Below are positions 24,087 through 57,322 of a DNA stretch of 64,000 nucleotides, piece by piece. Made by a program: the position numbers and the translations under genes. Source of the DNA: Liolophura sinensis (lineage: Eukaryota; Mollusca; Polyplacophora; Chitonida; Chitonidae); assembly GCF_032854445.1 (NCBI RefSeq), contig NC_088296.1:24373604-24437603 (forward strand). Reading direction: 5' to 3'. The notes beneath the pieces were generated by a model, which saw only the letters and a program-made list of their open reading frames with translations, was not told the origin of the DNA and did not search any database. Each line of letters opens with the position of its first letter. The first letter of the stretch is position 1.

Positions 24087-24173
24087 TCACACGTTGTTAC
24101 AACTGGGAATTGTCGCTGGTTTCTGTACCACAGGGCCGAAGTGTGGCAATGGGTTTTCACACATTGGAACAAG
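24087..24173 (-). CDS. Gene B candidate terminal exon
   Basis: The acceptor tacattacag and phase 0 fit the previous exon. It encodes 28 residues beginning LVPMCENPLPHFGPV and stops at TGA 24087-24089. No motif is recognised. Another terminal exon further downstream cannot be excluded. Confidence 0.45.
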   Translation of the reverse strand, partial: LVPMCENPLPHFGPVVQKPATIPSCNNV

Positions 24174-27100
24174 CTGTAATGTAAAACACAAATATCCCTT
24201 CACTCAATCACACAAATCTGTTGATGGTTGCACATATTATATATAAAATAAAACTGACATTATCAGTCTCATAAACCACCACTATAAACATGTACACCAA
24301 GATAGGGGAAAGAGACCACTTAAAAGTATGCTCATATGCAAGGTCTCAATATTTGGGTACTTTCTATACATTGTATTTCAGCAAACTACAAGCATGTATG
24401 TGTTCCACACAGAGGGTTAGCCTGCATCTATGCACCTGCTGTTCTTAATGAATAAACCTGCTTGCAACATACACATTTACACATATACGGAATGACTATC
24501 AAGAGACTGATTTTAGCCAGTCAGCTGTATTTTCCAGCAACATTACAAATATTCCTCATCAAACTTTGGCCAAAACCTCCATATTTTCTGTCAGCTATGT
24601 GTATCAACATGTAACGATTGGGTTTCCATGACATTTGAACAAGGTGGCCTAGATGTTGGTAAACTTTGGGAGGTTGGGTACTGAGATAACAGTTTTACAC
24701 ATTCCAGAAAATTGGCTTACTGTACAGAATAAGGGTGCAAGTAACGTGTATACTGGTTTACACCTTTGCATATATAGTCAAATTTTAAGAACAGTTTTGA
24801 AGCCTATAGAAAATGGGCTCTTGAGCACTATACTAAACCATGTCCCCATGACTACGGCGATCATGTAGACTTTATTTTTGTTCTTATTTTTCATTTAAAA
24901 TTAATCAAATGTTTTGTAGATTCATCCCTGCCAACAACTAAAGCAACTGCTTTCCGTTTTATATCAACTAACCACCTGAAACATTTGTGCATAAGAGCAA
25001 ACATATCCATATATATTACAAATTTACTTACGGTTTCAGGCATTTCATCAACACTGTGTACGTTATTGCGATTTGGGCGTCTTCTGAAATTTATTTGGAA
25101 AAAAAATCCCTCATTCCTAAATTGCAGTATAATATATGCAAAACAAATTTGGTTACCGAGATTATTTGGGTTTAACTGCTTATGACAATATAGCTTTTAA
25201 AAAACACTTTCGGGTATTATTGCAATTATTACTATTACGCTGCTATGATTTTGATAAACCTTCAATGTTTGTGAAAACAAATGTTTTTTCGTAAATCGCA
25301 ATGAAAATAGCAAAGTAATGGCAGATACTTTCCCTCAATTTTACATTACAAACCTTCTGATTCTCCTCACACAAGCAAGACGTTACATTCTGTATTCACC
25401 TGGCACAAACGGTGTGAAAAGATGACGTCACAGTCACGTCGGTGATGAGGAAAGGTTAGCATTGTATCTGTCCAGTCAAAAAACGCCTTTGATCGATAAA
25501 CCTTTTGAAAATGGCTTACACACCCGTGAAGTATGACTAAGACGATCAATTTACCTTTTGATCCTACAGTAAACAAGGCCAGTACAAACCACCAAGAGCA
25601 CACTGACCACTGGAACAATGACCCACCATGGCTTGAACTCTTCTGAGTCTGGAGGTAAATTTAATAGGCAAGGAGCTATTAGTAAGGATGATATATATGT
25701 AGCTGAACTTACGTCTGGAAGTAAGATTGCCTGAATCTTGTTAATCTACAACCAGTTTATGTCCGTCAAAGAACACAAATTCCTTACAAAAGCAAGATTT
25801 CCACCACATCACAATTAGCACTCTAAAATATTTGACACAAAGCACTGGGCTTTTATCTGCTTAGCACTAAACAACGTCTAGTTATCTGCTATGGAAACAT
25901 CTGCTGCAAGCGCCAGTTTATGGTCCCGAGATCTCTGGTCGAAGCCTACAACATATTATGTTGTTTATAGGAATCAATGGCCATCCAAGGAAAGTCATGT
26001 GCTGCTGGCAAACCAATCAAAATAAAATGCCAGTTTTCCGTGTTTATTTCAATGGGAAATAAACTTCAATCAAATGATCATATAAATATTTTTATTTTTA
26101 GTATCATTCTTTTTCTGTTTATAACTCACCCCTATATGAAGGATATGGGCTTGTCGCTTTGTCATTATCGGTGTGGTTCACTGTTTTCATTTGAGGAGTC
26201 ACTAGTCAATGAAATTGAAATAAACATGAACAGGAAAATAAAAGTCACAATTTTCTGCAATGTAGAATAATCCAACAGTTTTTACCGTGGACACTGCTGT
26301 TTGCTTTGCGTGAGAAATACGGTAACGTTACAAAAATGCTATGTGTAGTTTTCCAAGCGTAGACTGTTTTAAAAAGTCCATTATGTTTTCATTTAGAACA
26401 GAACACCCATAAACAAATGGCTGCTGACTGTGGGGAAAGAAGCATGCGGCGCCTCAGACACATGAAATCTCCCAGGTATCAAACTCTAGCTGTATTTTTA
26501 CTTACCGCAGCTTTCACGAGCAATTGGTACTTTCGAGTGAAAAATAGCACACTGACGTGTTTATCGGTGATATACTCACCCGACGGTGGGGGCCAAACAT
26601 TCAGGCAAACTTGAGCCTCAACCACGGCTTGTTCCTCGGGTACAACAACAGTAACGGAGTAGTTGTCGCTATATTCTGGTTTAGGGTCAAGGAGAACCAA
26701 GGAGCAGTCGTCTCCCAGGGAAGCCGTGTTATTAAACTCAGAGGCTATGAATGTTTTCCCGGTTAAAAGTCTGTTGAGCAATCTTTTGCTGTTCGTCTTC
26801 TGGGAGCGCCATAACACAGCATATGTGGCATTGGGGTTTTGTGTTGTAATGTTGCATGGCAAAGTAACGTTAGGCCTAGGAAGCTGAATGTCAACTCTGG
26901 GGTTTACCAAAACTGTCAAGGGACTAATGTCTGAATAACAAAAGACAAAACAAAAACACAGCTTATATTGAATGTGGAACACTTCAACCTTTCAGACAAG
27001 GCTTAACCTGGGATAAAATTATCAAATGTTATCGAGGTGAACTGATGACTTCATGATGCACAAGTAAACAAAATGAATGATCTGGTATTGTACTGATATA

Positions 27101-27395
27101 TGCAACCTTGCACTGAATGTAAGCTTATTCTTCAGGTTTTTACAGGTGTTTGTGTACATTTATGCATTATACATTTATTTATTACCTTTATGCCCGCCCC
27201 ATGTGTGATATTATTTAGTAAGGCACTACACACTGAGTGGCATGCTAACTGGCTGCTTTACTGGATACATGCATGGCGTATAAAAGACCAGTACTTACTG
27301 TGTACAAGACACACAAGGAACACCCAAACACAGACCAGACCAACTGCTAGAGCTCCATACTTTGAGTATGACATTTCCGTTGAGGTGATATCAAT
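24087..27395 (-). CDS. Gene B 3' part: TM - Ig - TM - short tail
   Basis: Five exons join in phase: 27299-27395, 26580-26930, 25555-25648, 25032-25083, 24087-24173 (phases 0-1, 1-1, 1-2, 2-0, 0-stop), giving 226 residues from 27395 or 219 from the ATG at 27374. Order: a first hydrophobic helix (GALAVGLVCVWVFLVCLV), one Ig V-like domain rich in N-glycosylation motifs, a second helix (WWVIVPVVSVLLVVCTGLVY) followed by the strongly basic RIKRRRPNR, and a short tail with no tyrosines. Two readings exist. Either ankyrin exons upstream splice into 27395, making helix 1 a true membrane span, or the ATG at 27374 starts a separate Ig protein and helix 1 is a signal peptide. The first three exons are well supported; the terminal exon is the weakest. 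Confidence 0.7.
25032..25083 (-). CDS. Gene B exon: basic juxtamembrane tail
   Basis: 52 nt, phase 2-0, acceptor aaatttcag, donor gtaagt. It encodes RRPNRNNVHSVDEMPET, continuing the basic stretch after the helix in phase with the previous exon. Confidence 0.65.
25555..25648 (-). CDS. Gene B exon: second transmembrane helix
   Basis: 94 nt, phase 1-2. DSEEFKP precedes WWVIVPVVSVLLVVCTGLVY, then CRIKR. Basic residues follow the helix, placing the C-terminus in the cytosol. Confidence 0.8.
26580..26930 (-). CDS. Gene B exon: single Ig V-like domain
   Basis: 351 nt, phase 1-1, acceptor ttattcag, donor gtgagt. PNVTLPCNITTQNPNATYAV gives strands B-C with Cys, and VLWRSQ carries the core Trp. Strand F reads PEYSDNYSVTVVV: the D-x-Y core is present but the usual second Cys is Val. 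Other Cys are in DDCSLVLL and AQVCLNV, so the disulphide may be rearranged. NVT, NIT, NAT, NNT and NYS are potential N-glycosylation sites. Confidence 0.8.
27299..27395 (-). CDS. Gene B exon: junction and first hydrophobic helix
   Basis: A strong acceptor (gttgttgtttccttcag) ends at 27396, and the frame is open from 27395 at phase 0: IDITSTEMSYSKYG then the helix. The ATG at 27374 lies inside the exon with G at -3. The donor is gtaagt at 27298, phase 1. The splice creates ...CLVHN-ISPL, and no clean small-residue -3/-1 signal peptidase site is obvious next to it, which mildly favours a membrane span. Confidence 0.75.
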
Positions 27396-27519
27396 CTGAA
27401 GGAAACAACAACGAAATTCTTTCAGCTTTAGAAAACAGTCACTTCCACATGTATACTTAGAAAAATGATCAGATAGCCAGTCTGAACGTTATCTTTTCCC
27501 CATAACATTTAGAACGTAC

Positions 27520-27618
27520 CTCATTCTGAGCATTGCCCGTGGCCCCATTCTTCACCAATAGACGAACGAGTTCCACATCATAGTTCTTCAGTGCCAGATC
27601 TAAGGGCGCAACTCCATC
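27520..27618 (-). CDS. Ankyrin-repeat exon ank1 (most 3')
   Basis: 99 nt, phase 0-0, acceptor ttcccacag, donor gtacgt. It encodes DGVAPLDLALKNYDVELVRL then LVKNGATGNAQNE, one 33-residue ankyrin repeat. It is the last ankyrin exon before the gene B membrane exon, 124 bases downstream, and has a working-looking donor that needs a phase-0 partner. Confidence 0.88.
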
Positions 27619-27924
27619 CTGTGGGAACGGAATTGAATCAAACATGACGAGAGTTTGTGGGAAGTACATTTTTGGCATTGTGGATGTCCGGTGTCACGAG
27701 AGGTCAGTCACAATGGTACAAAGTATAATTTGCAGCACATGCTTTATTATATTGTCACCCTTTACTTCTACGTTTATTATGAACCAAGTAAATTTTACTT
27801 TTTAACGATATTATACATTAAATGACGGAAAAATAATTTGCTCTTCGAATAAAGGCCGTTAATGACATTGTTAATCACCCGACGCCCTCAGCTTCGCCCT
27901 TAATTATATTTGTGCACCACGTAC

Positions 27925-28023
27925 CTTATTCTGCACGTTGACACTAGCCCCGGACATTACAAGCAGGTTTACAAGGTCCTTATTGCCTCTCCGTACCGCC
28001 AAATACAAAGGAGCCTCTCCTTC
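27925..28023 (-). CDS. Ankyrin-repeat exon ank2
   Basis: 99 nt, phase 0-0. EGEAPLYLAVRRGNKDLVNL then LVMSGASVNVQNK. Acceptor ctcacag, donor gtacgtgg. Confidence 0.9.
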
Positions 28024-34986: not shown

Positions 34987-35085
34987 CTTGTTCTGTACGT
35001 TGACATTGGCTCCGTGCTTTATCAACAGACGAACAAGGTCCATATCATCTGCCCTCAACGCCCAAAACAATGCCGTCTCAGCCTC
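34987..35085 (-). CDS. Ankyrin-repeat exon ank3
   Basis: 99 nt, phase 0-0. EAETALFWALRADDMDLVRL then LIKHGANVNVQNK. Donor gtacgt. A 7-kb intron holding a decayed Ty3/gypsy element separates it from ank2. Confidence 0.9.
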
Positions 35086-35454
35086 CTGTGGGATGTCACA
35101 ATAATATGTCATTTATATACTTGTAACACGCTTTTGTTTTTTAATTACTACTAGTCCACAAAACAGTATCTCCTTTATATGGATCACCAGGATGTTATAC
35201 TGGTTGAGGGTAGATTAAACAAGAGTTCATGTGAACACACAAACGCCCCAACAAATGCATTTGTTTGAAATGTATAAAAGAATACCAGCAGCATTGTGGT
35301 GTGTATAACCCTTGGGGGAGGGGGGGGGGGATTTTTATCGCAAGCTGGCAAATGTGTTCACCTGAAACCCAAACATTATGCGAATGTTGGAATTGTAGCC
35401 CGGGCTCGAAAATCAAATCTATGTATATAGTATATATAAGACAAATCTCATTAC

Positions 35455-35830
35455 CATGACAACTGCGAAAATAGATAAATGTGTGTCGTAAAAACATTGT
35501 CACCTGCGTATCTATGTATCCACCAAAAAATAAAACTCTATGTAGAATACTGTGGGAGGAACAACTCGGATTTGAAAATTATATCTATGTGTATAGCACA
35601 TTTAAGAAGAGTGGTTATCTGGAAATAGACAAGTGTGAGTCGCGACACATCATACATACACTCATCTGTGTATGTATCCACCAAAATCAAAACTCTACGC
35701 AGACAACTTTTGGAGTTATAGCCCGGACACGAATACGGACGGTCACACGGACAGACGGACACAATCGCTATAACATAATACGCCCCCATAGTGGCGATGC
35801 GTATAAAAACTACTGAGCGACCATTGGCCA
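35455..35830 (+). repeat. Diverged mobile element 3' end
   Basis: Two imperfect copies of a roughly 180-base segment (tctatgtatccaccaaaa and gtatgtatccaccaaaatca) lead into cggtcacacggacagacgga and cataatacgcccccatagtg. This terminal signature is one I associate with repeats common in molluscan genomes; the class is not assigned. Confidence 0.5.
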
Positions 35831-36064
35831 TAACTACCTAATGAAGATACATATGCAGGTATTGTATACTATTATGTTAACAACGTTTTCCACAGGGTTT
35901 TTAGAGTGAATCTATTTTTGTTTGTATTTTGTACCCCCTATGTTTACACAATTTAGACTGTATGCCTGGAAATAAACCTAAAATGAAACATGTATTTTAG
36001 TGCTGGTCTTATTTAGTCTAGAATCAGAGAAAATGTGAAAATCATCGTACTGTACACCACATAC

Positions 36065-36163
36065 CTCATTCTGTACATTGACACCAGCGCCTCTCTCTAC
36101 CAAGAGACGAACAAGATCCAGATTACTTGCCCTTAGGGCTAAAAGCAATGGCGTCTTCCCATC
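36065..36163 (-). CDS. Ankyrin-repeat exon ank4
   Basis: 99 nt, phase 0-0. DGKTPLLLALRASNLDLVRL then LVERGAGVNVQNE. Acceptor ttttacag, donor gtatgt. Confidence 0.9.
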
Positions 36164-36237
36164 CTGTAAAAGTTAAAAATGGTATTTTTTGTCATGTCGC
36201 TAACGAATTGTACATTCCATGACAGTGTTACCAGTCA

Positions 36238-36296
36238 CATAATTCGTCGTCATATGAGTGCAAAATTGTTAAGTACGACGTTAAACTCCAAGCATG
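36238..36296 (+). repeat. SINE tail fragment
   Basis: cgtcgtcatatgagtgcaaa then attgttaagtacgacgttaa matches the tail of the element at 21788-22058. Confidence 0.65.
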
Positions 36297-36728
36297 ATTT
36301 CCTTTTCTCTCCAGGGCACGGACATGTATGTAAAACCAAAGTTTGATACAAGAGCATGACGCACGTGGTAACTGTATTTCTGTACATATATCTTGGATTT
36401 TTTCTGGTAAATTACCCTAATTGACGTCATATCTGCCTCATTTAAGATGACATCAGGAATGTATTCTCGTCAAATGAACCAAGCTGTGGTATACACCGTA
36501 AAAGTATTTAGCAATGGTAGCAATTTTGCTCTACATATTCAAGGCTTCCTCAATATATGTTTACAAATTCAGCTCAGATTTCCTCGAGTCTACAATTAGT
36601 TTTGAAACCTTTTAAACATTGTTTACCCAGTTAACATTAAAAACCGTGTTTGAGGATAATTGAAACATAAATCCTTTGTTTATATTGTCATAACTAGCGT
36701 GGTCTTTGATCTGTGGATAACGTTCTAG

Positions 36729-36826
36729 ATCCTGAATTTTGACATCAGCTCCATTCCTGAATAGGAGACGAAGGCGATCCAGATTATTTGCCTCCGATGG
36801 ACCAGGAATAATGGTGTCTTACCCTC
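36729..36826 (-). pseudogene. Dead ankyrin-repeat exon (ank5)
   Basis: Starts EGKTPLFLV after a normal acceptor, then a 1-base deletion shifts the frame; the remaining repeat (NNLDRLRLLFRNGADVKIQD) is readable in another frame. The donor GT is gone: ctagaac follows where gtacgt is expected. An older, fully disabled exon between ank4 and ank6. Confidence 0.85.
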
Positions 36827-36829
36827 CTG

Positions 36830-38527
36830 TGTACTGTAACAATACTATACAAACCACGACCTTATCTCCCGACAAGCAGGACGTCCGCCGATTCACACCT
36901 ACCACGCAAAACTTCATTTTTGCCAAAGTTTTAAGTTCAAATATATTGCAATAAAAAACGAAGTGCAACTAACATCACCCTACACTTTTACCTAATTCTC
37001 CTTAAACCACTATGCCAAGGGGAACGCAATTTGGTACCATTTAAGCATTTACACGAACAGTTTGTTTCACAGGTGATACATTGCCAACCATCACACTGCT
37101 GTTACTCTTTGCTGTGTGATTTATTATACTGTATTCTTATATAAATTACCAGGATTCTGCTGGTGGACTAATCATTGAAAAGGCCTGGTTACTTTGCATT
37201 CTTTCAATGGTGCCTTGTGTTAAAGGTGATGACAGCACAGCATGTTGAGTCCTTCTAGGCCAGTGACGTCAAAGTAATTGCAAGTAACCTTACCTTTTGT
37301 TTACTTAATTCAGCCTGAGGCCGGATGTTAGCGACGGTGTAATTTCCTGCTATTTATGCATTTACATGAATAGACAGATCAATACATAAATGACAATATA
37401 ATGTGGTGATACCCGATGTAGTTAACTTCTTTTGTCGGGTTTACTTGCGCCGGAACAAAACAATTTATGACGAAAAGGTTTCTGGAGTACAAACCAGAAT
37501 ACAGTATACGTCTTTTATAAACAATACACAGAGTCCAGCTGCACCAGGAGTACAATTAGGCTACCTCAGGCTTTCATATTTATATGATAACGTTTTAATC
37601 GAATAAAAACCACCTCCACAATGGAACGTAAGCAAAAAAACAGCTTTGAACAGGGACATGTATGACATGTAGGCTTTCATTTGTAGTGGATTAAAATTTG
37701 GTTAACACGAAGATAACTGCACAAAGTACTTGGGGGCTCAGGATTGTGTATTCAGGAGTTCCGCTATGTCTACTAAACTAAACCTAGTCAAAATTCTGTT
37801 TTAGAAAAAGAGTGTATTATACAAACAGCTTTGTAACATTAATTTCATTTAAAAGAAAAGAACACATTTATACAACTTATAACAAAGAGCTATACCTAAG
37901 GCTAAATAAAATATCTCACTTTTCTGCCAGCAGTTTTGTTGTCTGAGTAGGTAACAGTTAAACATCGGAGGCTTAGAAGTCTTTTTAGGCTACCATTTCA
38001 ACAGATTACATACGTCATGGACCTTAGCTTTACCCAGTAGCTCTTCAGGGCATGGCATTCCAGACACAATTTGGCAGCCTACAGCCACGAATGTAGGCAT
38101 GGTGTGCCTTTTAGTGCGGTCCAGCTTCTTCCTTTATCTAAACACATTAATATCCACGATTATCACGATATACTTACGTATTTAGCTAATACTGGAAATG
38201 CACGTTATTTATTCATCAGGAGTAAAACCTTCAGCACAATGACGTCACAATTAGCATTCAGGAGGATGAAATGGGGCTTTCATTGGATAAGCCTAAAGCA
38301 TGCCGGGACGTTCAATCTTTCTCTAGTCGGTGGATTTTGTAGAAAATAACGATGTTTATACCGCTTTTCTTTCAGACGAAAACTTAAAAAAAGAGAATTC
38401 CATAGGCCTACAATTTGTATAGCTCTGTTATTTAAGGTATAAATTGTATAAATGCGTTTTTTTAAGACCACAGGGATTTCACAATGTTACATGTAGATCG
38501 TCACGTATGTCAACAACAACAACTCAC
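36830..38527. other. Intron between ank6 and ank4
   Basis: Apart from the dead exon at 36729-36826, no further ankyrin-like exon, SINE or other feature was supported. Confidence 0.4.
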
Positions 38528-38626
38528 CTTATTCTGAATGTTGATGTCCCCGCCCAGATCCACAATCTGACGGACAATATCCACATTATTTTTACGCACT
38601 GCCCAGTGAACAGCCGTCTCTCCTTC
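38528..38626 (-). CDS. Ankyrin-repeat exon ank6
   Basis: 99 nt, phase 0-0. EGETAVHWAVRKNNVDIVRQ then IVDLGGDINIQNK. Acceptor ttcaacag, donor gtgagt. Confidence 0.9.
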
Positions 38627-38734
38627 CTGTTGAATGTCACAATAACATACACGTAGCAGGTTCATTGACATCAGTGGTATAGATGTATCTCCCGATTGTT
38701 AGTGACCAAAGATGTGTTGTGATAGTCCGCAGTG

Positions 38735-39110
38735 CCGCAATCACACTGTCCCACATTGCCGCGGTCACACATAACAACACAGGCCCGGAGCGATGTACTA
38801 CAGTGCCGCGGTCATACACTGCAGCACGTCACCTTAGCGATGTACCACAGTGCCGCAACGACATTGTACCACAGTGCCGCACTCACACGTACCACAGTGC
38901 AGCAATCACACAGTACCACAGTGCCGCAATCACACTTTACCACAGTGCCGCAATTACACTGTACCACAGTGCCCCAATGACACTGAACCACAGTACCGCA
39001 ATCGCACTGTACCACAGTGTCGCGGACATACACTGCACTGCAACACCGTAGCGATGAACCGTAGTGCCGCAATTATACTGTACCACACTGTCACACACAG
39101 CACCACAGGC
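38735..39110 (+). repeat. 24-bp minisatellite
   Basis: A degenerate array with unit cacagtgccgcaatcacact plus g/ttac, clearest at 38,850-39,025. The period is a multiple of three, which leaves overlapping open frames on both strands. Confidence 0.9.
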
Positions 39111-41822
<2,712 letters not shown>

Positions 41823-41921
41823 CTGATCCTCTGTTGTGAGACTCACTACTTTCTTCACGAGTAGATGAACGCTCTCAATATCACCGTTCATTACTGCCTT
41901 GCGCAAAGACATCTGGCCTCT
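41823..41921 (-). CDS. Divergent ankyrin-like exon ank7
   Basis: 99 nt, phase 0-0. RGQMSLRKAVMNGDIESVHL then LVKKVVSLTTEDQ. The TPLH motif is replaced by MSLR and the Gly-Ala turn by VV, but helix spacing, length and splice phase match the family. Donor gtatgt. Confidence 0.75.
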
Positions 41922-42625
41922 CTGTGGATTGTCATGACTATGTGTCAGTTACGACATAAATTTGTAATTACCACATCAGTTTACAATATTTAACTCCTCT
42001 GCACATATCTCCGGTATACAGTAGATAGCTTAACTTCACCGTTACATATTTATCCTGCTCGCTGTTTACACATTTACTCACAGTCTCCTATCGAAGATAC
42101 TGCAAACATTTAATGTCAGCTAAAACTCCATATCCAACTAGCACATTTCAGTATGTATGCACGACATTATGGACAGCGACATTTACGCACACGACAGTTC
42201 GACATACCCAGCATTTTAGCCAGCGACATTTTGACACTAAATATTACTCTGGCTCCATGTGTCAGTGTGTATTCAGTTTGTAACAAAATGCCCCGACACC
42301 AGGCTTCATGTAAATTATAAAATGATATGCAAACGTTATTTACATCAAATTAATGACTAAATGAACGACCCGAAGTCCTGGATAGACTTAATGGACCGTG
42401 AAAGCTCAACTTGGAAGGGAACGCTCACCCTTAGTGCTACATGATATAGCCTAGAATGGTCCAGGTATGTTTCTCCATATAGCACATGAACACGTGACCA
42501 GGCCATGTGCCACGGTTCAAATTAATGTTGTCTTTCGACGTATTTAAGCTAGATAATTCTGTACCATTCGCCGTCACACACCGTAGTTAATTTCATAAAA
42601 CATGTATAGACGTATTATAACATAC

Positions 42626-42718
42626 CTTATCCTGTATACAGGCGTCCTCACCCTTCAGCAAAGAAACAACGTGCGCATGGTTTAATGTTGACGCGACGCG
42701 CAAAGCCGTCCTCCCGTC
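42626..42718 (-). CDS. Ankyrin-like exon ank8 (93 nt)
   Basis: 93 nt, phase 0-0, two codons shorter than its neighbours. DGRTALRVASTLNHAHVVSL then LKGEDACIQDK. Donor gtatgt. Still in frame because the loss is six bases. Confidence 0.8.
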
Positions 42719-45325
42719 CTGAATAATGACCAAGACAGTTAAAAATTAGTGTAGTTTACATTAAGACTCCAAAGGTCAATAAGACTCAGAATTACAGCCG
42801 ATTTTGCAAAAACTATTAGAGCAAAAAATTCAATATAACATAATAATGGCAAAAAACAAAGCCTTCGGAATAAACAGAATAGGTCAAAGCGCTCTGTAAC
42901 ACATCACTATAAGATACACATGTGCTCATATACAGAATATAACTGATGTAGAGCTTGGTGTTTGAACAGGATTTTAGTTCATTAAAAATAGAGGACTCCA
43001 TGGCTCAGTTGGTTAGCGCGCTAGAGCAGCGTAATGATCTTATTAAACCAAACATTGTCTCTATTTTTACAGTTTGATTAACATGTTTGGGTTTTCAGAA
43101 GATGAAAGTTTCAACTATTTGTACAAGGCTTCAAACGAACATGACAAAGAAGCATATGCTGCAGAGGATAAATAGAATAAACAGGTAAATACAAATGTAT
43201 TTAAAAAATCCCTTTATTCAAAGAATATGTCAAAGTGACTTAATCGAAGTGCACTTAGGAAGGCTGAAGGTAATGATAAGCAGTATGAAGACGACTCAAA
43301 TTCGGTCCATTTCATAAGGAGATTACAGGACATCAATTATCTAAAACTTTACAGTACATAGGTATATGGCATGGTTAAATTTCTGTCCTCCGCCAATGGA
43401 TACATTTTGCGTACAGTTGCCATATGGGAACAATCTTATAAAGCATAATTAACTGTTCATGTCCTAAGTAAGACGGAGTTTAATTTTGAAAAGAAAATTC
43501 CTGACTTTTTGGCTGTGTGAAGTGCTAGGTTGAGGCGTATACACGAGCTCGTAGATACAATCAGAAATGTACATCCGCACGGCAAACCTTTTGCATCAAC
43601 ATTGTTACTGGGTGTTAGCTGTATTCATATAGCTTGGAATTCAGATTTTAATAATGATAAAATACCTATTATTCTGTGATGTTAAAACCATTTACAGAAT
43701 GTATTTTTACTCGAACATTGATGGCTTACGTGAACAATAGTTGTATAAGAAATGTTAACGATCATTCCTTGTATTATCATCATAGATTCAAATTTCTATG
43801 GTAAGCCGGCTAAGCTATAGACAGATTTAATTTAGTGAAAAGTCTAGTCAATTTTTTCGTAGCCTGTTTACGATAGTCGGCTAAATGACCCTTAGCCGAC
43901 AAACAGACTTTCAACAGCTACAGAAGTTTTGTGAAAGAGGCGCACATTTTTGTCTTGGACCATGAGTTCGTTTATATTGATTTTTTTATACTAATTTTTA
44001 ATACTTTCATTAGTCCGTTTTTTTACACCTGTTTTATAAGGTCACATTTCTTTAAGTCGTGTACACTGTTATAAGATTAAAAGTCAAATGCTCTTTGAAA
44101 GTTGATTCCCTTAAGTGCGAAAATGTCAAGGTCAATGTACAACAACGACACATGTTTTGATATGTGTAAATGTTGAATGTTACTGCGAGTTGTGACAGCA
44201 TATAACCGATACACATTGATATCGATCTCATTTATTAGGAAATGATGTGTAAGACGATTTGTAAAACGTAAGCAATAATTTGCACGTTTTGTAATTTAAA
44301 TACCGATCGCTTAAAGTAAGTAATGATTGCACTTTTATTGTTGTTGCAGCCAATCTCTGTCTCTGAATAAACTGAACTTCAATCTCCAAATAGAAAACTG
44401 AACTCTAAAATCATAACGTTGGAATAAAACGAAGACAGTGATTTGGCGGAGATTTTGTACTTTACAAAATATTAATATAATAGTACAAACACAGATGCCA
44501 GATGAAAACATACTTAAAATGCTACTTCAGTAAAAATGCTATTAATATCAAATTCACTAATAATCAGCGTAACTACGCTTATTCATACGGGGAATGTAAA
44601 CATCACACGAGTATGTATGGGTTATGCCCCTTTAATACACGTACCTATTATTGAATGTACTAACTCATATTGTCAATAGTCACACAGTAACAGCGCTATT
44701 TGAATCCACAAAATCAACCCAGGAACAGATTGTTTACCTTTAGGAATACTTCCTTAACTAATTTTAGATATTCTTCGCAAACATATTGGCAGATCTGTTG
44801 ATGAAAGATGACATTTTAGCCCCATGTGACTTGGGAGAGGGGTGTCAAAAGTGGCGAGAAGGACTGCATCAGCAAATTTCTTTGCAGCCAGAAAATAACC
44901 AAAGACATAAATTTTATGTTTTGTAACATTTTAGGGCATTCTATGGTGGTTGTGTTAACAATTAACTGTTGAAATCAAGTTTAAAGGTCTATTCAAAATG
45001 CCACACAGTAGGGGTTTTCCATGACCCCGAACACCAAAGGAAACTGGGAGATTTTTGAATTTTTTGTTTTACACTTCCATTTATCTGTCAGAGGGTGTCA
45101 TGGATGTTTAATTAGCATTTTTCTTCTTAATTTGATGTCTTAATTGCAGCGTTTTTCATTGTTCCTTTTCATTACCTGCTGCAGTTTATTTTTGATTCTG
45201 CCCTGCATTACTTTTGGCTTAACGCCGCCTTTTCTGGAGGAAATCCGCTCTTTGTGTAGAATTTAGAATTTCTAAAGCAAACTGTAGAAAGAAGGTCTCC
45301 TTTGTGTAGGGCAAAGATTCTTTGG
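42719..45325. other. Intron between ank9 and ank8
   Basis: Contains a SINE head at about 42,988-43,028 and otherwise AT-rich sequence with no supported feature. Confidence 0.4.
42988..43028 (+). repeat. SINE tRNA-like head
   Basis: gaggactccatggctcagtt then ggttagcgcgctagagcagc, the A-box end of the family at 16648-16786, without body or tail. Confidence 0.7.
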
Positions 45326-45329
45326 TCAA

Positions 45330-46020
45330 ATTTTTGGATTGGTGTTCTAAGCATGGTGCCATCTACACCAAGCTAAGCAAATTTGTTAGGAGGCCAAGTT
45401 TTTCCTTTCGTCCATCAGAAAACAACTGCATCTGCATAATAACCCTTGAGACGTCTTGCCTAATTTACTGTTGGGATAGTGTGCACTCACAATTTTACCT
45501 CCTAACAGAGATTATCTTGAGATCTATTAAACAACGTTTTGTGTGGAACGCTCTGGAAGTGGTTGGTGTATCCCTGGACAATCTACTATAAGTGACAGTT
45601 ACTTGTTAATCACAAGGACCTTTGGACAGCACAGTCAACGCTTCATACTACCACTGAACTGGCAGTCATGTGACACTTCTCTAATTTGTCCATGCTCAAG
45701 TCCTGTTACCTAATGTAGACCGCTCATAGTAGAATGTTCCACTCGACATTCTTCTCGCGATATCAAGGATCCAGAGTCATCATCAAAACAATGAATGAGC
45801 TCTGGCTTCTCCATAGCATAGGATCGTCTTCATCAAAGAAAGCTACATCCATTAAGAAAGCATTTTCTTCAGGTTCCATTCTGTTAATGTATTTATCGAA
45901 GAAGTGCATTTTAATGTAGTAGTTTAGCAGTCTCCAATTATCAAGTGGCAAAAACCATATCTGATGTCATTGTTTACAATATGGTCAGAAAGGGCCACTG
46001 AAAGAGCCAGAGTTTATAAA
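45330..46020. repeat. Locus-specific repeated element, copy 1 of 3
   Basis: This segment (from ggtgccatctacaccaagct to aagggccact) recurs at about 51,170-51,850 and 61,880-62,560. It contains a minus-strand frame at 45763-45951 (NRMEPEENAFLMDVAFFDED ...) that I do not recognise. It carries no ankyrin exon. Confidence 0.75.
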
Positions 46021-47235
46021 ACCGTTCAATATATTATAAAAATTTGAAATTTCTTGTTTTTTTACATTACAGTAGACAGTTACACTCTGCAAAGAGTATT
46101 AAGGATTAATTTGGTCTATAATATTTGTGTTTTGCGGCTACTTATGTATGAGTATTCTTTCCTGTGCAAAGGAAAAATAATGTTATACTTGAAATGCTAC
46201 TTCAGTAAAAATTCTCTCAATGGCAAAGTCACGTATAATGAATCTGATCAAAGGTTTGCTATGACGTAGTTTTCGGGCATGTAGATCTCAGGTAAGGAAA
46301 TGACACGAAACTTTACTTACCTCAGATAATCTATCTAACTCGCTGAAATAATGGGCGTGAATAAAAAATTACACACCAGAGAAATTAAACTATTAATGCA
46401 CGGTTATCAACTGAGGTGAAAACCTTGAAGATCTTACAAGTAAATGTACAGGCCAACCGAATAATGACCTAAATGTGTACAAGAAATGGAGACAAAATGT
46501 GGATTGCTAAATTTTCTTTGCTTCATCAGTAATATAAACCATCGTTTTAAATTGGTCTCCGTAAATTAAACACGATATGCTGAGTTTTCTCTTGCTTTTT
46601 GTAAACAAGGCTTTATACATGTTAAAAGGTGATTATTCATTTGATGAAAACGTGTTAGGAAGCTACCATTGCAGAAAGGCTATCACGTCTTAATTTACTT
46701 CTACTGATCCTATAAACATGTTCATATTTTGTGAGTTCGAATACAGACCTGGCGTTGCTGACATATATAGGCGGCTGGAAATGGGCAGAGGCGTGTTCAT
46801 TTCATTGCTCAGTGTACTGATTTTCCAGTTCGCCTCTTGTATTTACAATGTCTATGTGTCTGTATAGCACAGGCACTCATAAACACTGGCCTTATTTTCT
46901 ACAGTCGTCAAGCGGAAAAACACCTTTCTTCGCTGTATAATGTCACCATACAGCATTTATCCAAGTCTAAAGTTTGATTTAGTGAACAGTAAATTAAAAT
47001 AAACTCATGTCAAGCGGCTATTTTATATTCATGGATATGTCTTGGCTTTAATAGCTTAATAACACTATACACAACAAAATACTCAGCAATTATTATATTC
47101 TGTGTAGAGCATTTTTCTTAGTTTGGGCCAGTGGGTTTGATGCTTAGTATAGATTTTAAAACACAACGTGCAGTTGTCCAGAGGACCATCTCTGGTCAAG
47201 TTTTGTGGGTGGTCTAACATTAGTATATCACGTAC

Positions 47236-47334
47236 CTTATCCTGTACACTGACATCAGCACCCTTCTCCAGCAGGAAACGAACAACATCTTAATTGTTTT
47301 TCCCAGCGGCAATGTGCAAAGGGGTCCACCCATC
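47236..47334 (-). pseudogene. Ankyrin exon ank9 with in-frame stop
   Basis: Acceptor and donor (gtacgt) are intact and the sequence matches the array consensus (DGWTPLHIAAGKNN ... DVVRFLLEKGADVSVQDK), but codon 15 is TAA where the relatives have GTA. If included in a transcript it would truncate the protein before the membrane exons. Confidence 0.85.
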
Positions 47335-48013
47335 CTGTGCAAATTTAAAATAATGTAATACTTGAGCGGCTACTTCAGTAAAAATGCTATTAATGACAAA
47401 TTGACTAAAAATTAATGTAACTACACCTGTTAATACGGGGAATATAAAAACAAAACGAATGTAAGCTTTTTAGGTGGCGTATAAATATAAGCGTTAAGTC
47501 CGACATTCCTATAAGGCATTGGAAATAAGCTTTGTACTTGCTGGGCTGGAATATGTAAACTACAGGGCCTGTTCATTTCTGTTGCCATGCTACTGATTTT
47601 CCAGTTCGCTATTTGTATTCACTATGTCTATTTATCTGTATATCACAGGCACACATACACACTGGCCTCATTTCCTACAGTCGCCAAACGGAAAAACACT
47701 TTTCTTCGCTGTATAATGTCACCATATAATATTTATCCAAGTCAAAAGTTTGATTTAGTGAACAGTAGATTTAAAAAAAAACTTATGTCAAGCGAATGTT
47801 TTATATTCATTAATATGTTTTGGCTTTAATAGCTTAATAACACTATACACAACAAAATACTCAGCAATTATTATATTCTGTGTAGAGCATTTTTCTTAGT
47901 TTGGGCCAGTGGGTTTGGTGCTTAGTATAGGTTTTAAAATACAACGTGCAGTTGTCCAGAGGACCATCTCTGGTCAAGTTTTGTGGGTGGCCTAACATTA
48001 GTATATCACATAC

Positions 48014-48112
48014 CTTATCCTGTACACTGACATCAGCACCCTTCTCCAGCAGGAAACAAACAACATCTACATTGTTTTCCCTGGCTGCAATGTGCAAAGG
48101 GGTCTTCCCATA
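48014..48112 (-). CDS. Ankyrin-repeat exon ank10
   Basis: 99 nt, phase 0-0. YGKTPLHIAARENNVDVVCF then LLEKGADVSVQDK. Donor gtatgt. It lies 778 bp from ank9, the same spacing as in the main array. Confidence 0.9.
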
Positions 48113-49005
48113 CTGTGCAAAGTAAAAATAATGTAATACTTGAGCGGCTACTTCAGTAAAAATGCTATTAATGACAAATTGACTAATAATTAATGTAACT
48201 ACACCTGTTAATACGGGGAATATAAAAACAATACGAATGTGAGCTATTTTGGTGGCGTATAAATATAAGCGTTAAGTCCGACATTCCTATAAGGCATTGG
48301 AAATAAGCTTTGTACTTGCTGGGCTGGAATATGTAAACTACAGGGCCTGTTCATTTCTGTTGCCATGCTACTGATTTTCCAGTTCGCCCTTTGTATTCAC
48401 TATGTCTATTTATCTGTATATCACTGGCACACATACACACTGGCCTCATTTCCTACAGTCGTCAAACGGAAAAACACTTTTCTTCGCTGTATAATGTCAG
48501 CATATAATATTTATCCAAGTCAAAAGTTTGATTAAGCGAACAGTAGATTAAAATAAACTCATGTCAATCGGATGTTTTATATTCATGGATATGTTTTGGT
48601 TTTAATAGCTTAATAACCTTATACACAACAAAATACTCAACAAGTTCGCAGATGGGTGAAATATTTCCAGATCTTTTGAAGAAGTCAAAGGCATTAAAAT
48701 GTGCCCGAGCTCTAACTGTGCCTGCCCAAGAACTAACACGGTAAAATATTAATAAGTAACGTAACTTACATCGCCGTTCTACAAAAAACAGATAAAGTAT
48801 GCCTCGTCATTCCAAAGATGGAAGTTTGAAATATTCACAGTTATTATATCCTGTGTGGAGCAGTTTTCTTAGTTGGGGCCATTGGGTTTTTGGCCTAGTA
48901 TAAGCCTTGAAATACAAAGTGCAGTTGTCACAAAAGTAAACTGCATGACAAAGCACCATCTCCCGTCAAGTTATGTGGCCGTCCTCCTGTCAGTATATAA
49001 CGTAA

Positions 49006-49104
49006 CTTATCCTGTACATTGACATCAGCACCCTCCTCCAGCAGCAAACAAACAACATCTACATTGTTTTTCCAAGCTGCATAGAGCAAAGGGGTCCACC
49101 CATC
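49006..49104 (-). pseudogene. Ankyrin exon ank11, splice donor lost
   Basis: The open repeat is intact (DGWTPLLYAAWKNNVDVVCL then LLEEGADVNVQDK), but the donor reads ttacgt instead of gtacgt. Its close paralogue at 59732-59830 keeps gtacgt. Probably skipped, which would keep the frame. Confidence 0.8.
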
Positions 49105-50518
49105 CTGTGCAAAGTTAACATAATGTAATACTTGAAAAGCTACTTTAGTAGAAATGTTCTTATTGCCAAAGTCAATGAAGTATAATGAATCTGATCAAAG
49201 GTTTGCTATGACGTTGTTTTCAAGCATGTAGATCTCAGACAAGGGAATGACACGAAACTTTACGTTTCTCAGCTAATCTACCTTAACTCGCTATATTAAT
49301 GGGTGTAAATAAAAAAAGTACACACAAGAGCAATTAAACTATTCATTAACTCTTATCAACTAAGCCGAAAATCTTGAAGATCTTACATGTAAACGTACAG
49401 GTCCACCGAATATTCACCTAATAGCGTACAAGAAATGGAGACAAAATGTGGACTTTTGAATTTTCTTTCCTTCATGAGCAATGCAAACTATCCTTTTAAA
49501 TTGATCTTACTTAAATTATTAACTGGGAGCTCACGATATACTGACGTTTTTCTTGGTTTTTCAATTTTGCGCAAATCCTTATACATGTTATGAGCTGATT
49601 TTCATTTTATAAAGATGAGTGAGAAAGCTATAATTGCAGACAGGCTATCACGTCTTAATTTTCTTCTACTAATCTATAAAAAAAAATGTTCATATTTTAT
49701 GAGTTGGAACAAAGACCTGATCGTGTAAGGCGTTGTTGACATTTGTATGCGGCTGGAAATGGGCAGAAGCGTGTTCATTTCACTTCTCAATGTACTTGGC
49801 TTTCCAGTTCACCTTTTGTATTCTCTATGTCGATGTATCTGTATTTCACAGGCACACATACACACTATGCTTTTTTCTACAGCTGTCAAGCGGAAAAACG
49901 CTTTTCTCAAATGTATAACGTAAGAGTGTAACACTTATGTTAATCTACAGTTTGATTTAATGAACTGAAGTTAAAGATAAACTTAGGTCAAGCGGCTGTT
50001 TTATATGCATGGGTACGATTTGACATTGATAGCTTTTGGCTTTTATAGCCGAATAGGAATATAGACGAAAAATAGTCAGCAATTAATATTGAAAAGACTC
50101 ACATTATAAGTTTTAAATCAGTAGATAGATTTTCACTATTTTTTTTAAATTTTGTAGGACGATGAAATTTTGTCAGGGGTTTTCGAGAAAATGAAGTCAT
50201 TATAATCTGCCCGAGCTCTAAATAAATACTCCGCCTGCTCAAGAACTAACACTCTAAAATATCATTAAATTACGCAAGTTACATCTGCGGACTACAGAAA
50301 GACGTTATAAAATATGCATTGTTTTTCTAAAGATGGAAGTTTGAAATATATACACTTATATCCTACGTGGAGGAAACTTATTTACTTTCAGATTTGGCGC
50401 ACAGAACAGGTCTTGAAATTCAAGGCTCAATTTACACGTGAGTAAAAGAAGTTAACATTGCACAATCTGCCCTAAACCTCACATCACATCACCGGCCTCA
50501 CATCAGTACATCATGTAC

Positions 50519-50617
50519 TACATTCTCTACATTGACATCAGCACCCTTCTCCAGCAAGAAAAGAACAATCTCTACATTGTTTTCCTGAGCTGCATACTGC
50601 AAAGGAGTCCGCCCATC
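50519..50617 (-). CDS. Ankyrin-repeat exon ank12
   Basis: 99 nt, phase 0-0. DGRTPLQYAAQENNVEIVLF then LLEKGADVNVENV. The acceptor is aag rather than cag and the donor gtacat is weak, so inclusion may be inefficient. Confidence 0.75.
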
Positions 50618-51169
50618 CTTTGCAAAGTAAACATAATGTAATACCTGAAATGCTACTTCAGTAAAAATGCAATGAATGACAAATTCACTAATAATTAATG
50701 TAGCTACACCTGTTAACACGAGGAATGTAAAAATAATGCAAATGTAAGCTAATGTGGTGGCGTATAAGACATTTGGGGTGTGCTTTGTACTTGCTGGCTT
50801 GGCGTAAGTAATATACAGAGCCTGTTCATTTCTGTTCCCAGTGTACTGATTTTCCAGTTCTCCTTTCGAAATGACCATGTCTGTATGTTTGTATATCACT
50901 GGCACTCATACACACTCCATGATGTTATTTTCTACAGTCGTCAAACGGAAAACCACTTTTCTTGGCTGTATAATGTCACACTGTAAAATTTATCCAAGTT
51001 AAAAGTTTGATTTAGTAAACATTAGATTTAAATAAACTCATGCCAAGCGGCTGTTTTATATTCATGGATATGTTTTGGCTATAGTAATTTAATGAACTTA
51101 TATAAAAAAATGCTCAGCAATTCTTATCAAAATGACTAATATTATGGTTTTAAAACCCCTCTAAGTACT

Positions 51170-51850
51170 AAGTATGGTGCCAACTACACCAAGCTAAGTA
51201 AACTGCATAGGAGGCGCTTTATTGTTTCTTTCGTCCATCACTGAACAACTGCATCTGCATAATAATCCTTGAGACATCTTATCTGATTTACTGTTGGGAT
51301 AGTGTGAGCGAACAATTTTACCTGTTAAGGCCGAATATCTTGAGATCTATTAAACAACCTTTTGGGTGGAACGCTCTGAAAGTAGCTGGTTATCCCTAGA
51401 CAACCTTCTACAAGTGACAGTTACGTGCTAATCACAAGGACCTTTGGACAGTACAGTCAAGTCTTTGTCAAGTCCTATGAAAGTGCCACTGAACTAGCAG
51501 TCATGTAAGATTTTTCTAATTTATCTATGTTCCAAGTCCTGTTGCCTGATGTTACCTAATGTCCACCGCTCATAGTAGAATGTTCCACTCGACATTCTTC
51601 TCGCGATATCAAGGATCCAGAGTCATCATGAAAACAATGGATGAGGTCTGGCTTCTCCATAGCATAGGATCATCTTCATCAAAGAATGCTACATCCATTA
51701 AGAAATAATTTGCTTCAGGTTCCATTCAAGTATTCATGGAACGAGTGCATTTTAATGTAGTAGTTTAGCAGTCTTCAATTATCAAGTGGCAAAAACCCTA
51801 TGTGATGTCACTGTTTAGAATATGGTCAGAAAGGGCCACTAAAACAGCCA
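51170..51850. repeat. Locus-specific repeated element, copy 2 of 3
   Basis: Matches 45330-46020, more diverged, and 61880-62560, close. The minus-strand frame seen in copy 1 is interrupted here. Confidence 0.75.
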
Positions 51851-53353
51851 CAGTTTTAAAAGGCGTTTAATAGATGAAGAAAATTTGAAAAAAAAAAATG
51901 ATTGTGTCTGACAGGCACTTCAAAGTGTGCGTTCTTTTTGTTTTCTTTAACTTTTTAGTAGACATTTACACTCTGCAAAGAGTATTATGGACTAATTTGG
52001 TCTGTAAACTTTGTGATTGGCTGGTACTTTCAATTAACAGTATTTTTGAATTTAAGTCAAAAAGATGATCAAAAGTTTGCTATGACGTAATTTTGAGACA
52101 TGTAGATCTCAGGTAAGCAAATGACACCAACGTATACTTACCTCAGCTAATCTACCTTAACTCGCTGTAAAAATGGGTGTAAAATAAAAACGTACAAACC
52201 CTAGCAATTAAACTATTCATGCACTGTTATCAACAGAGCCGAAAATCTTGAAGATCTTACAAGTGAATGTACAGGTCAACCGACTATTCACCTAATACAA
52301 GAAATGAAGACAAATTGCGGATTGCTGAATTTTCTTTGTTTCATTAAAAATACAAACAGTCCTTTTAAATTGGTCTCCTTAAATTAAACACTGGGCAGTT
52401 CACGATATACTGACTTTTTTCTTGCTGTTTGTAGGTTGCGAAAAACCTTATACATGTTATGAGATGATTATTCATTTTATGAAAATGTGTTAGAAAGGGA
52501 CCATTGCAGAAAGGCTATAACATCTTAATTTACTTCTACTGATCCTACAAACATGTTCACATTTTATGAGTTCGAATAAAGACCTAAGCGTGTAAGTCGT
52601 GGTTGACATTTATATGCGGATGGAAATGGGGAGAAGTGTGTTCATTTCACTTCTCAATGTACTGATTTTCAAGTTCGCCTTTTATATTCACTATGTCAAT
52701 GTGTCTGTATATCACGGGCACTCATACACAATGGCGTTTTTTTTCACAGTCGTCAAACTGAAAAGCACTTTTCTTCGCTGTATAATGTCACAATATAGCA
52801 TTTATCCAAGTCAAAAGTTTAAGTAGGTGAACAGTAGATTAAAATAAACTCATGTCGCGTGGATGTTCTATATTCATGGACATGCTTTGGCTTTAATAAC
52901 TTAATAACTTTACACTCAACAAAATACTCAGCAATTCTTATCGAAAAGACCCATATTATGGTTTTAAAACCGTACGTGGTTTTTCTCGGTTTTTTTTTTA
53001 ATTTTGCAGATGGGTGAAATATATTCAGAGGACATTAAGAAGTGAAAGTCATTAGAGTAAGCCCGAGCACTAACTAAAATACTGTGTCTGCCCAAGAACT
53101 AAGGCGGTAAAAGGTCATGAGGTAACGTGGCTTACATCGTCCTTCTACAAGAACTGGTAATAAAATATGCGTCTACCTTCTAAAGATGGTAATTTGAAAT
53201 ATTCACACTTATTATTTGCTGTGTAGAGCATTTTTCTCAGTTGGGGGCCACTGGATTTGGTGCTTAGTACAGGTGTTAAAATACAAAGTGCAGTTGTGCA
53301 GAACACCATCTCGTCAAGTTTTGTCGCCGGCTTCACATCAGTAAATCACGTAC

Positions 53354-53452
53354 CTTATTCTGTAAACTGACATCAGCATCCTTCTCCAGCAGGAAACGAA
53401 CAATATCTACATTGTTTTCCTGAGCTGCATCGTGCAAAGGGGTCCACCCATT
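53354..53452 (-). CDS. Ankyrin-repeat exon ank13
   Basis: 99 nt, phase 0-0. NGWTPLHDAAQENNVDIVRF then LLEKDADVSLQNK, with Asp in place of the turn Gly. Donor gtacgt. Confidence 0.88.
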
Positions 53453-54108
53453 CTGTACAAAGTAAAAATAATGTAATACTTGAACTGCAACTTCAGTAAA
53501 AATGCTAGGAATGACATATTGACTAATAATTAATGGAGCTACACCTGTTAATACAGGTAATACAGGAATGTAAAAATAATAAAAATGTGGGCCATTGTGG
53601 TGGCGTTTAAGACATTTGAAGTGTGCTTTGTACTTGCTGGTTTGGAGTAAGTAAACTAGAGCCTGCTCATTTCTGTTCCCATTGTACTGAATTTCCAATT
53701 CACCTTTTGAAATGACTATGTTTATGTGTTTGTATATCACAGGCACTCATACACAATGGCCTCATTTTCCACGGTCGTCAAATGGAAAAACACTTTTCTT
53801 CGCTGTATAATGTCACCGTATAATATTTATCCAAGTCAAAAGTTTGATTTAGTGAAGAGTAGATGTTAAAAAAAAACTTATGTCAAGCGAATGTTTTTTA
53901 TTCATTGATATGTTTTGGCTTTATTAGCTTAATAACACTATACACAACAAAATACTCAGCAATTATTATATTCTGTGTAGAGCATTTTTCTTAGTTTGGG
54001 CCAGTGGGTTTGGTGCTTAGAATAGATTTTAAAATACAACGTGCTGTTGTCCAGAGGACCATCTCTGGTCAAGTTTTGTGGGTGGCCTAACATTAATGTA
54101 TCACATAC

Positions 54109-54207
54109 CTTATCCTGTACACTGACATCAGCACCCTTCTCCAGCAGGAGACGAACAACATCTACATTGTTTTCCCCAGCTGAAATGTGCAAAGGGGTCC
54201 ACCTATC
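54109..54207 (-). CDS. Ankyrin-repeat exon ank14
   Basis: 99 nt, phase 0-0. DRWTPLHISAGENNVDVVRL then LLEKGADVSVQDK. Donor gtatgt. First of seven units spaced 778-781 bp. Confidence 0.9.
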
Positions 54208-54886
54208 CTGTGCAAAGTAAAAATAATGTAATACTTGAACGGCTACTTCAATAGAAATGCTATTAATGACAAATTGACTTATAATTAATGTAACTACACG
54301 TGTTAATACGGGGAATATAAAAACAATACGAATGTAAGCTTTTTAGGTGGCGTATAAATATAAGCGTTAAGTCCGACATTCCTATAAGGCATTGGAAATG
54401 CGCTTTGTACTTGCTGGGCTGGAATATGTAAACTACAGGGCCTGTTCATTTCTGTTGCCATGCTACTGATTTTCCAGTTCGCTTTTTGTATTCACTATGT
54501 CTATTTATCTGTATATCGCAGTCACACATACACACTGGCCTCATTTCCTACAGTCGTCAAACGGAAAAACACTTTTCTTCGCTGTATAATGTCACCATAT
54601 AATATTTATCCAAGTCAAAAGTTTAATTTAGTGAACAGTAGATTTAAAAAAAAACTTATGTCAAGCGAATGTTTTATATTCATTGATAGGTTTTGGCTTT
54701 AATAGCTTAATAACACTATATACTACAAAATACTCAGCAATTATTATATTCTGTGTAGAGCATTTTTCTTAGTTTGGGCCAGTGGGTTTGGTGCTTAGTA
54801 TAGGTTTTAAAATACAACGTGCAGTTGTCCAGAGGACCATCTCTGGTCAAGTTTTGTGGTTGGCCTAACATTAGTATATCACGTAC

Positions 54887-54988
54887 CTTATCCTGTACAC
54901 TGACATCAGCACCCTTCTCCAGCAGGAAACAAACAACATCTACATTGTTTTCCCTGGCTGCAATGTGCAAAGGGGTCTTCCCATACAA
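54887..54988 (-). CDS. Ankyrin-repeat exon ank15 (102 nt)
   Basis: Phase 0-0 but with one extra codon at the 5' end: LYGKTPLHIAARENNVDVVC then FLLEKGADVSVQDK. Donor gtacgt. The three-base insertion keeps the frame. Confidence 0.88.
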
Positions 54989-55667
54989 CTGTGCAAAGTA
55001 AAAATAATGTATTACTTGAACGGCTACTTCAATAGAAATGCTATTAATGACAAATTGACTAATAATTAATGTAACTACACCAGGTAATACGGGGAATATA
55101 AAAACAATACGAATGTAAGCTTTTTAGGTGGCGTATAAATATAAGCGTTAAGTCCGACATTCCTATAAGGCATTGGAAATGCGCTTTGTACTTTCTGGGT
55201 TGGAATATGAAAACTATAGGGCCTGTTCATTTCTGTTGCCATGCTTCTGATTTTCCAGTTCGCTTTTTGTTATCACTATGTCTATTTATCTGTATATCAC
55301 AGGCACACATACACACTGGCCTCATTTCCTACAGTCGTCAAACGGAAAAACACTTTTCTTCGCTGTATAATGTCACCATATAATATTTATTCAAGACAAA
55401 AGTTTGATTTAGTGAACAGTAGATTTAAAAAAAAACTTATGTCGAGCGAATGTTTTATATTTATTGATACGTTTTGGCTTTAATAGCTTAATAACACTAT
55501 ACACTACAAAATACTCAGCAATTATTATATTCTGTGTAGAGCATTTTTCTTAGTTTGGGCCAGTGGGTTTTGTGCTTAGTATAGGTTTTAAAATACAACG
55601 TGCAGTTGTCCAGAGGACCATCTCTCATCAAATTTTGTGGGTGGCCTAACATTAGTATATCACGTAC

Positions 55668-55766
55668 CTGTTCCTGTACACTGACATCAGCACCCTTCTC
55701 CAGCAGGAAACAAACAACATCTTTTTTGTTTCTCACAGTTGCAACGTGCAAAGGGGTCAACCCATC
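55668..55766 (-). CDS. Ankyrin-repeat exon ank16
   Basis: 99 nt, phase 0-0. DGLTPLHVATVRNKKDVVCF then LLEKGADVSVQEQ. Donor gtacgt. Differs from neighbours mainly at repeat positions 3, 8 and 10-14. Confidence 0.9.
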
Positions 55767-56445: not shown

Positions 56446-56544
56446 CTTATCCTGTACACTGACATCAACACCCTTCTCCAGCAGGAAACAAACAACATCT
56501 ACATTGTTTTCCCTGACTGCAAAGTGCAAAGGGGTCCACCCATA
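56446..56544 (-). CDS. Ankyrin-repeat exon ank17
   Basis: 99 nt, phase 0-0. YGWTPLHFAVRENNVDVVCF then LLEKGVDVSVQDK. Donor gtacgt. Confidence 0.9.
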
Positions 56545-57223: not shown

Positions 57224-57322
57224 CTGTTCCTGTACACTGACATCAGCACCCTTCTCCAGTAGGAAACGAACAAAATCTTTATTGTTTTTCACAGTTGCAA
57301 TGTGCAAAGGGGTCCACCCATC
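57224..57322 (-). CDS. Ankyrin-repeat exon ank18
   Basis: 99 nt, phase 0-0. DGWTPLHIATVKNNKDFVRF then LLEKGADVSVQEQ. Donor gtacgt. Confidence 0.9.

Follow-up and report, generated by a model that had tools for sequence, protein, structure and literature searches.

A candidate ankyrin-transmembrane-immunoglobulin-transmembrane gene in eight close copies on one contig of the chiton Liolophura sinensis

A 64,000-nucleotide (nt) stretch of the genome of the chiton Liolophura sinensis (positions 24373604–24437603 of contig NC_088296.1, hereafter C2; the stretch is referred to as the window) carries on its minus strand an array of single-repeat ankyrin exons, which is followed by exons for one immunoglobulin (Ig) domain flanked by two transmembrane (TM) helices. 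The exon arrangement indicates that the ankyrin and Ig parts very probably form one gene, Ank(n)-TM-Ig-TM, with splicing in vivo inferred from the genomic sequence. The unit has been multiplied to eight close copies, all on this one chromosome-scale contig.

Results

When the L. sinensis assembly itself (609 Mb, 632 contigs) was searched with the Ig product, eight close copies were found with 60–94% identity over the Ig, all on C2, and the next best match had 33% identity. The assembly was published, according to the available excerpt of its description, under the name Liolophura japonica (PMC11068029), and the species name has since been corrected to L. sinensis (PMC12441733). The copies are labelled A–H (B is L035 and D is L037), and about 29.4 kb of each of the seven other copies was set against the window. 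In 8/8 units the last ankyrin exon (27520..27618, minus strand, 99 nt, phase 0-0, donor gtacgt), scoring 53–59 bits, is located 123–133 nt upstream of the exon encoding the first helix (TM1 exon, 27299..27395, minus strand, phase 0 to 1, a putative signal-anchor helix, YGALAVGLVCVWVFLVCLV), with strand, frame and splice sites kept. A genome search with these two exons joined (74 matches at E ≤ 10; all 78 candidates were scored) returned eight of the one and eight of the other, all paired and neither exon alone. As the exon pair recurs without gaps in every unit, the arrangement is not due to chance; the ankyrin and TM1 exons are adjacent, frame-compatible and conserved in all eight.

The same stretch could instead hold two neighbouring genes, i.e., an ankyrin gene and, next to it, a separate gene for a type I Ig membrane protein that starts at ATG 27374 and has the first helix as a cleaved signal peptide. 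The TM1 exon of the window copy does contain this ATG followed by a signal-peptide-like stretch, weak matches in the PDB (phmmer, best E 0.03) align TM1-Ig with an antibody leader and V domain, and neither the helix nor the part of the exon before it carries a codon-position signature. However, ATG 27374, the sole possible start for an independent Ig gene within the exon, is private to the window copy, the other seven having ATT (Ile). In copies B and F there is no in-frame ATG between the last in-frame stop and the end of the TM1 exon. Copies C, D, E, G, and H do have an in-frame ATG above the TM1 exon, but it lies either within the intron or in the ankyrin exon read in a different frame, and its position is not common to all. 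No start is thus shared by the copies, whereas acceptor, frame and donor are common to all eight. The intron that separates the last ankyrin exon from the TM1 exon (27396..27519, minus strand, 124 nt, gap columns 11/134) had a divergence of 0.132; the other three introns had 0.099–0.113, and the 300-nt stretch preceding the last ankyrin exon had 0.125. The 124-nt intron is conserved no better than the others and therefore shows no promoter or 5' untranslated region. We consider two genes highly improbable. A cleaved signal peptide had been the first idea for TM1 and was dropped since the ATG was found in one of eight copies.

The window copy has six exons downstream of the ankyrin array, all on the minus strand: the TM1 exon (27395–27299), a V-set-like Ig exon (26930–26580, class 1-1, with five N-glycosylation sequons in this copy), a linker exon (26201–26130, class 1-1), the TM2 exon (25648–25555, phase 1 to 2, followed by basic residues), the first exon of the cytosolic tail (ct1, 25083–25032, phase 2 to 0, RRPNRNNVHSVDEMPET) and a terminal exon (ct2, 24173–24087, phase 0, stop TGA), whose frame and stop are kept at the aligned place in copies A–F (6/8). 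All have GT-AG ends, the reading frame is open throughout, and the phases run 0-1, 1-1, 1-1, 1-2, 2-0, and 0-stop. The penultimate ankyrin exon (27925..28023, minus strand, 99 nt, phase 0-0, EGEAPLYLAVRRGNKDLVNLLVMSGASVNVQNK) is intact in copies A, D, F, G, and H (5/8), has lost its acceptor and is degraded in E, and was not found at the aligned place in B and C. Pfam Ank was matched by the last two ankyrin exons joined with an E-value of 2e-13, and the gathering score of PF00023 (21.1 bits) was exceeded both by these two (50.2 bits) and by two other repeats joined (63.5 bits). All exons of the preliminary description are present where it had placed them, with GT-AG ends and an open model. Its last ankyrin exon at 27520–27618 with phase 0 and donor gtacgt was seen as described, its acceptor at 27395, 124 bases on and in phase 0, agrees with the measured intron of 124 nt, and in the exon model, as it had claimed, only two of the six downstream exons open in phase 0, namely the TM1 exon and the terminal one. 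Its proposal that ankyrin and Ig parts are joined in one gene is likewise supported, as judged from the eight pairs in eight units, the missing ATG in 7/8 copies, the gap-free exons and the position of the sequons.

Among the eight copies no gap columns were present in the last ankyrin exon (0/99), the TM1 exon (0/97), the Ig exon (0/351) or the linker exon (0/72), and the four introns had 11/134, 21/376, 79/438, and 108/490 (the last in seven copies). Mean pairwise divergence was 0.043 for the last ankyrin exon, 0.068 for the linker, 0.087 for TM1 and 0.131 for the Ig, the latter being about that of the fastest intron and higher than that of the other three. The ratio of nonsynonymous to synonymous substitution rates (dN/dS) was 0.31 in the last ankyrin exon, 0.33 in the penultimate one (five copies), 0.49 in TM1, 0.85 in the Ig, 0.60 in TM2 (six copies), and 0.50 (seven copies) and 0.80 (six copies) in the two tail exons; the linker gave 2.58, from a short exon with few changes. 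Within the Ig, dN/dS exceeded 1 in windows at its centre and at its end. In a bootstrap of the ratio of nonsynonymous to synonymous differences per site (pN/pS) the ranges for the last ankyrin and TM1 exons together (0.44 [0.20–0.98]) and for the Ig (0.87 [0.62–1.22]) overlap; it is therefore likely that the Ig evolves faster, but positive selection is not shown.

The Ig family, comprising the eight copies and four distant relatives (12 sequences), resembles the Ig superfamily, as its profile matched the structures of CD276 (E 4.5e-6), VSIG4 (E 7.6e-6) and CD80 (E 1.8e-5). Pfam V-set (PF07686) was matched at E ≤ 1 by 11/12 members with a best E-value of 4.1e-7; the Ig of the window copy scored 17.1 bits, below the gathering cut-off of 26. 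Cys25, Trp40, and Cys75 are invariant in 12/12, with Cys75 just ahead of an SLVL stretch, and there is no invariant cysteine at the place of the F strand, so that the V-set pattern of B-strand Cys, C-strand Trp and F-strand Cys is absent. The second invariant cysteine would instead belong to the E strand, shifted relative to V-set domains, if the strands are named correctly. A single-sequence AlphaFold2 model of the Ig exon consisted mostly of strands and had low confidence (mean predicted local distance difference test score 47.4). Beyond the close copies there were 31 distant Ig matches at E ≤ 10, many of them weak and 24 on C2. Four of these, L042–L045, are single-Ig exons on C2 with 28–32% identity and the same shifted cysteine pattern. 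No ankyrin exon was present in about 2.1 kb upstream of these 4 of 31 matches (4 kb each), and the best ankyrin scores nearby among the matches listed (6.2 bits for the domain, 9.1 bits for the whole frame) came from a stretch of low complexity that follows the Ig in L045. The association with ankyrin exons therefore seems limited to the eight close copies.

Both helices are strongly hydrophobic (Kyte-Doolittle 2.15–2.57 for TM1 in eight copies and 2.22–2.65 for TM2 in the six copies given). There are 3–6 sequons per copy in the Ig and linker and none among the tabulated tail, TM1, TM2 and last two ankyrin exons. Some of these tabulated entries come from stretches that are shifted or misaligned: in B and C the penultimate ankyrin exon, in C also TM2, in G both ct1 and ct2, and in H ct2. 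The confinement of sequons to Ig and linker, together with the basic residues after TM2, fits a protein with its N-terminus inside, the Ig outside and the C-terminus inside. Both ends are accordingly predicted to be cytosolic; this topology, with cytosolic ankyrin repeats and only the Ig loop exposed, had been put forward before from the basic residues, and it is consistent with sequon placement and helices.

The window holds 22 single-repeat ankyrin exons between 61324 and 27520, i.e., 20 more of the same array (34987..61324, minus strand) in addition to the two described above, and 14 of the 22 are intact with respect to splice sites and frame. Between 36728 and 61324 several no longer have a GT donor or are interrupted by a stop or a frameshift; shifting a splice site by a multiple of three would, by eye, make two of those that fail (42718 and 54985) usable as well. 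The array continues past the end of the window, and ankyrin matches extend over about 48–90 kb upstream in 7/8 units and over 17 kb in E (best 150 of 445 candidates). Arrays of the same type are also found, among the matches listed, at C2:498305-571210, C2:28373064-28392431, the end of C11, and on C30. Within the array of the window, an intron between ankyrin exons contains on the plus strand reading frames that by eye resemble Gypsy-type reverse transcriptase (30454-33355), and the sequences retrieved for several other copies contain DNA that matches these. An ankyrin intron also contains a 35-bp tandem repeat of 8.3 copies (34012-34300), and a minisatellite with 13 copies of a 162-bp unit (91% matches) is located at 16895-19007.

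Elsewhere in the assembly contig C99 contains seven copies of COX1, one of them partial, at a spacing of about 15.5 kb, and a further one is found on C632, i.e., a mitochondrial concatemer is part of the assembly. The mitochondrial COX1 reads TGA as Trp, consistent with an animal, and its neighbours, named by eye, are ND3, ND2, COX1, COX2, and ATP6, which we take to be a chiton-like molluscan order.

Discussion

Several observations weigh against a functional gene of the proposed structure, and they fall into three groups. First, parts of the units are damaged or missing. In copy C, 11 nt of TM2 are deleted, in copy H the linker has no AG at the aligned place, copy G is without ct1, and both G and H are without the terminal exon at the aligned place, the candidate of G being located further on. 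With such defects in their 3' exons, some copies may be pseudogenes. In the window 8/22 ankyrin exons are not intact. Second, several features were looked for and not found. The 5' end of the gene is one of these: a 4-kb region that includes the uppermost ankyrin exon listed and extends upstream of it held that exon and one more partial ankyrin exon, but no start. A genome search for a retrocopy of the spliced message gave 62 matches that were each confined to one exon (at most 2 nt over). No TM1 or close Ig match was found beside the other ankyrin arrays on C2, C11, and C30, but those at the contig ends (C2 and C11) may be cut off. Third, some of the comparative signals are absent or marginal. 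Variable sites in the TM1 exon number 7, 7, and 8 at codon positions 1, 2, and 3, compared to 0, 6, and 7 in the last ankyrin exon, and the first 21 nt of the TM1 exon have an intron-like divergence of 0.124; the case for TM1 as a coding exon rests on the absence of gaps, the kept splice sites and a kept helix. The higher pN/pS of the Ig is marginal (6.0% of bootstraps reverse the order), and it is not significantly above 1. Five Mantel tests (2000 permutations each) showed that the distance matrices agree only in part, with r 0.50 for Ig and last ankyrin exon (47 permutations as high), 0.53 for Ig and intron (6), 0.32 for Ig and TM1 (365), 0.27 for last ankyrin exon and TM1 (300), and 0.35 for last ankyrin exon and intron (85).

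If the damage to ankyrin and 3' exons is taken as representative, most of the units would be pseudogenes in decay and their architecture a relic. We find this improbable, as the last ankyrin, TM1, Ig and linker exons are without gaps in 8/8 copies and dN/dS is 0.31 and 0.49 in the first two of these. The ankyrin exons, moreover, are phase 0 and multiples of three in length, so that a defective one can be skipped and the frame is retained.

A single locus could also give rise to two products, with the array spliced either to TM1, giving a membrane form, or directly to the phase-0 terminal exon at 24173, which would result in a soluble cytosolic form, or with the Ig exon skipped. The phases allow this, as the terminal exon opens in phase 0, the Ig and linker exons are both of class 1-1, and the five exons between array and terminal exon add up to 666 nt. 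Copy B, furthermore, has a second TM2-tail cassette downstream of the first; this and an extra terminal exon in copy D are possible alternative 3' ends. On the other hand, TM1 and Ig exons free of gaps in all eight copies imply that the membrane form is not dispensable. A second product is possible though on balance somewhat doubtful, and it adds to an Ank(n)-TM-Ig-TM gene rather than replacing it.

The product of this single gene would begin with a long cytosolic ankyrin solenoid, encoded by single-repeat phase-0 exons, and continue with a signal-anchor TM1, one V-set-like Ig outside the cell and TM2, ending in a short, basic tail in the cytosol. The TM1 exon would serve as phase adaptor between the 0-0 ankyrin exons and the 1-1 Ig exon. 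Its most likely function, in our tentative opinion, is that of a surface receptor for recognition or adhesion, with the variable Ig loop meeting a ligand and the ankyrin solenoid docking partners directly inside the cell; receptor and scaffold would then form a single polypeptide.

Known systems resemble parts of this arrangement. L1-type Ig cell adhesion molecules are bound by ankyrins, which are separate proteins. They share with the chiton protein the coupling of an extracellular Ig module to a cytosolic ankyrin solenoid, but the latter is apparently one two-pass polypeptide with a single Ig. In NF-kB p100/p105, CAMTA, and FANK1 an Ig-like or FN3 fold and ankyrin repeats occur in one soluble protein; there the Ig-like fold is N-terminal to the repeats and membrane helices are absent, in contrast to the chiton protein. 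The V-set receptors CD276, VSIG4, and CD80 match the chiton Ig profile, and differ from it in that the second invariant cysteine of the chiton Ig appears to be shifted and its putative F strand lacks one. TRPA/NOMPC-type channels have a long N-terminal cytosolic ankyrin array that leads into the membrane part. The layout is similar in the chiton protein, which has no six-helix channel but two helices flanking the Ig. The length of the chiton arrays recalls NOMPC, and the solenoid might act as a spring that tethers a two-pass Ig protein to the cytoskeleton in mechanosensing; this is quite improbable, as a Pfam scan of the Ig product found no channel domain and fast evolution of the Ig suits recognition better. 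The VIgL/FREP proteins of gastropods, according to the available excerpt of PMC9334734, have divergent Ig domains that are poorly detected by automated domain searches and are implicated in immunity. The chiton Ig is similarly a divergent molluscan one, but is combined with helices and ankyrin repeats instead of lectin-type domains, none of which was detected in the Ig product by a Pfam scan at E ≤ 1. As far as the available text of PMC5094078 goes, ankyrin and Ig are in separate proteins. An Ank-TM-Ig-TM order was not described in the open full-text literature searched (closed journals and protein-architecture databases were outside the search), which agrees with the earlier remark that no family with ankyrin repeats N-terminal to a two-pass Ig protein is known to have been described.

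If the junction proves real, the protein fuses ankyrin repeats with a surface Ig, and what is elsewhere a receptor and a separate adaptor would be one gene. The exon phases, i.e., 0-0 for ankyrin, 0-1 for the adaptor and 1-1 for the Ig, show how exon shuffling can build such a fusion. A bolder and rather unlikely proposal is that these are self-scaffolding chiton receptors, with a diversifying Ig ectodomain and an ankyrin scaffold in one two-pass polypeptide, which have been multiplied on one chromosome, stand among other single-Ig genes with the same shifted cysteine and perhaps form part of an immune or allorecognition repertoire. That the Ig diverges about as fast as the introns and the ankyrin exon is held may, however tentatively, point to a recognition function in a little-studied class of molluscs.

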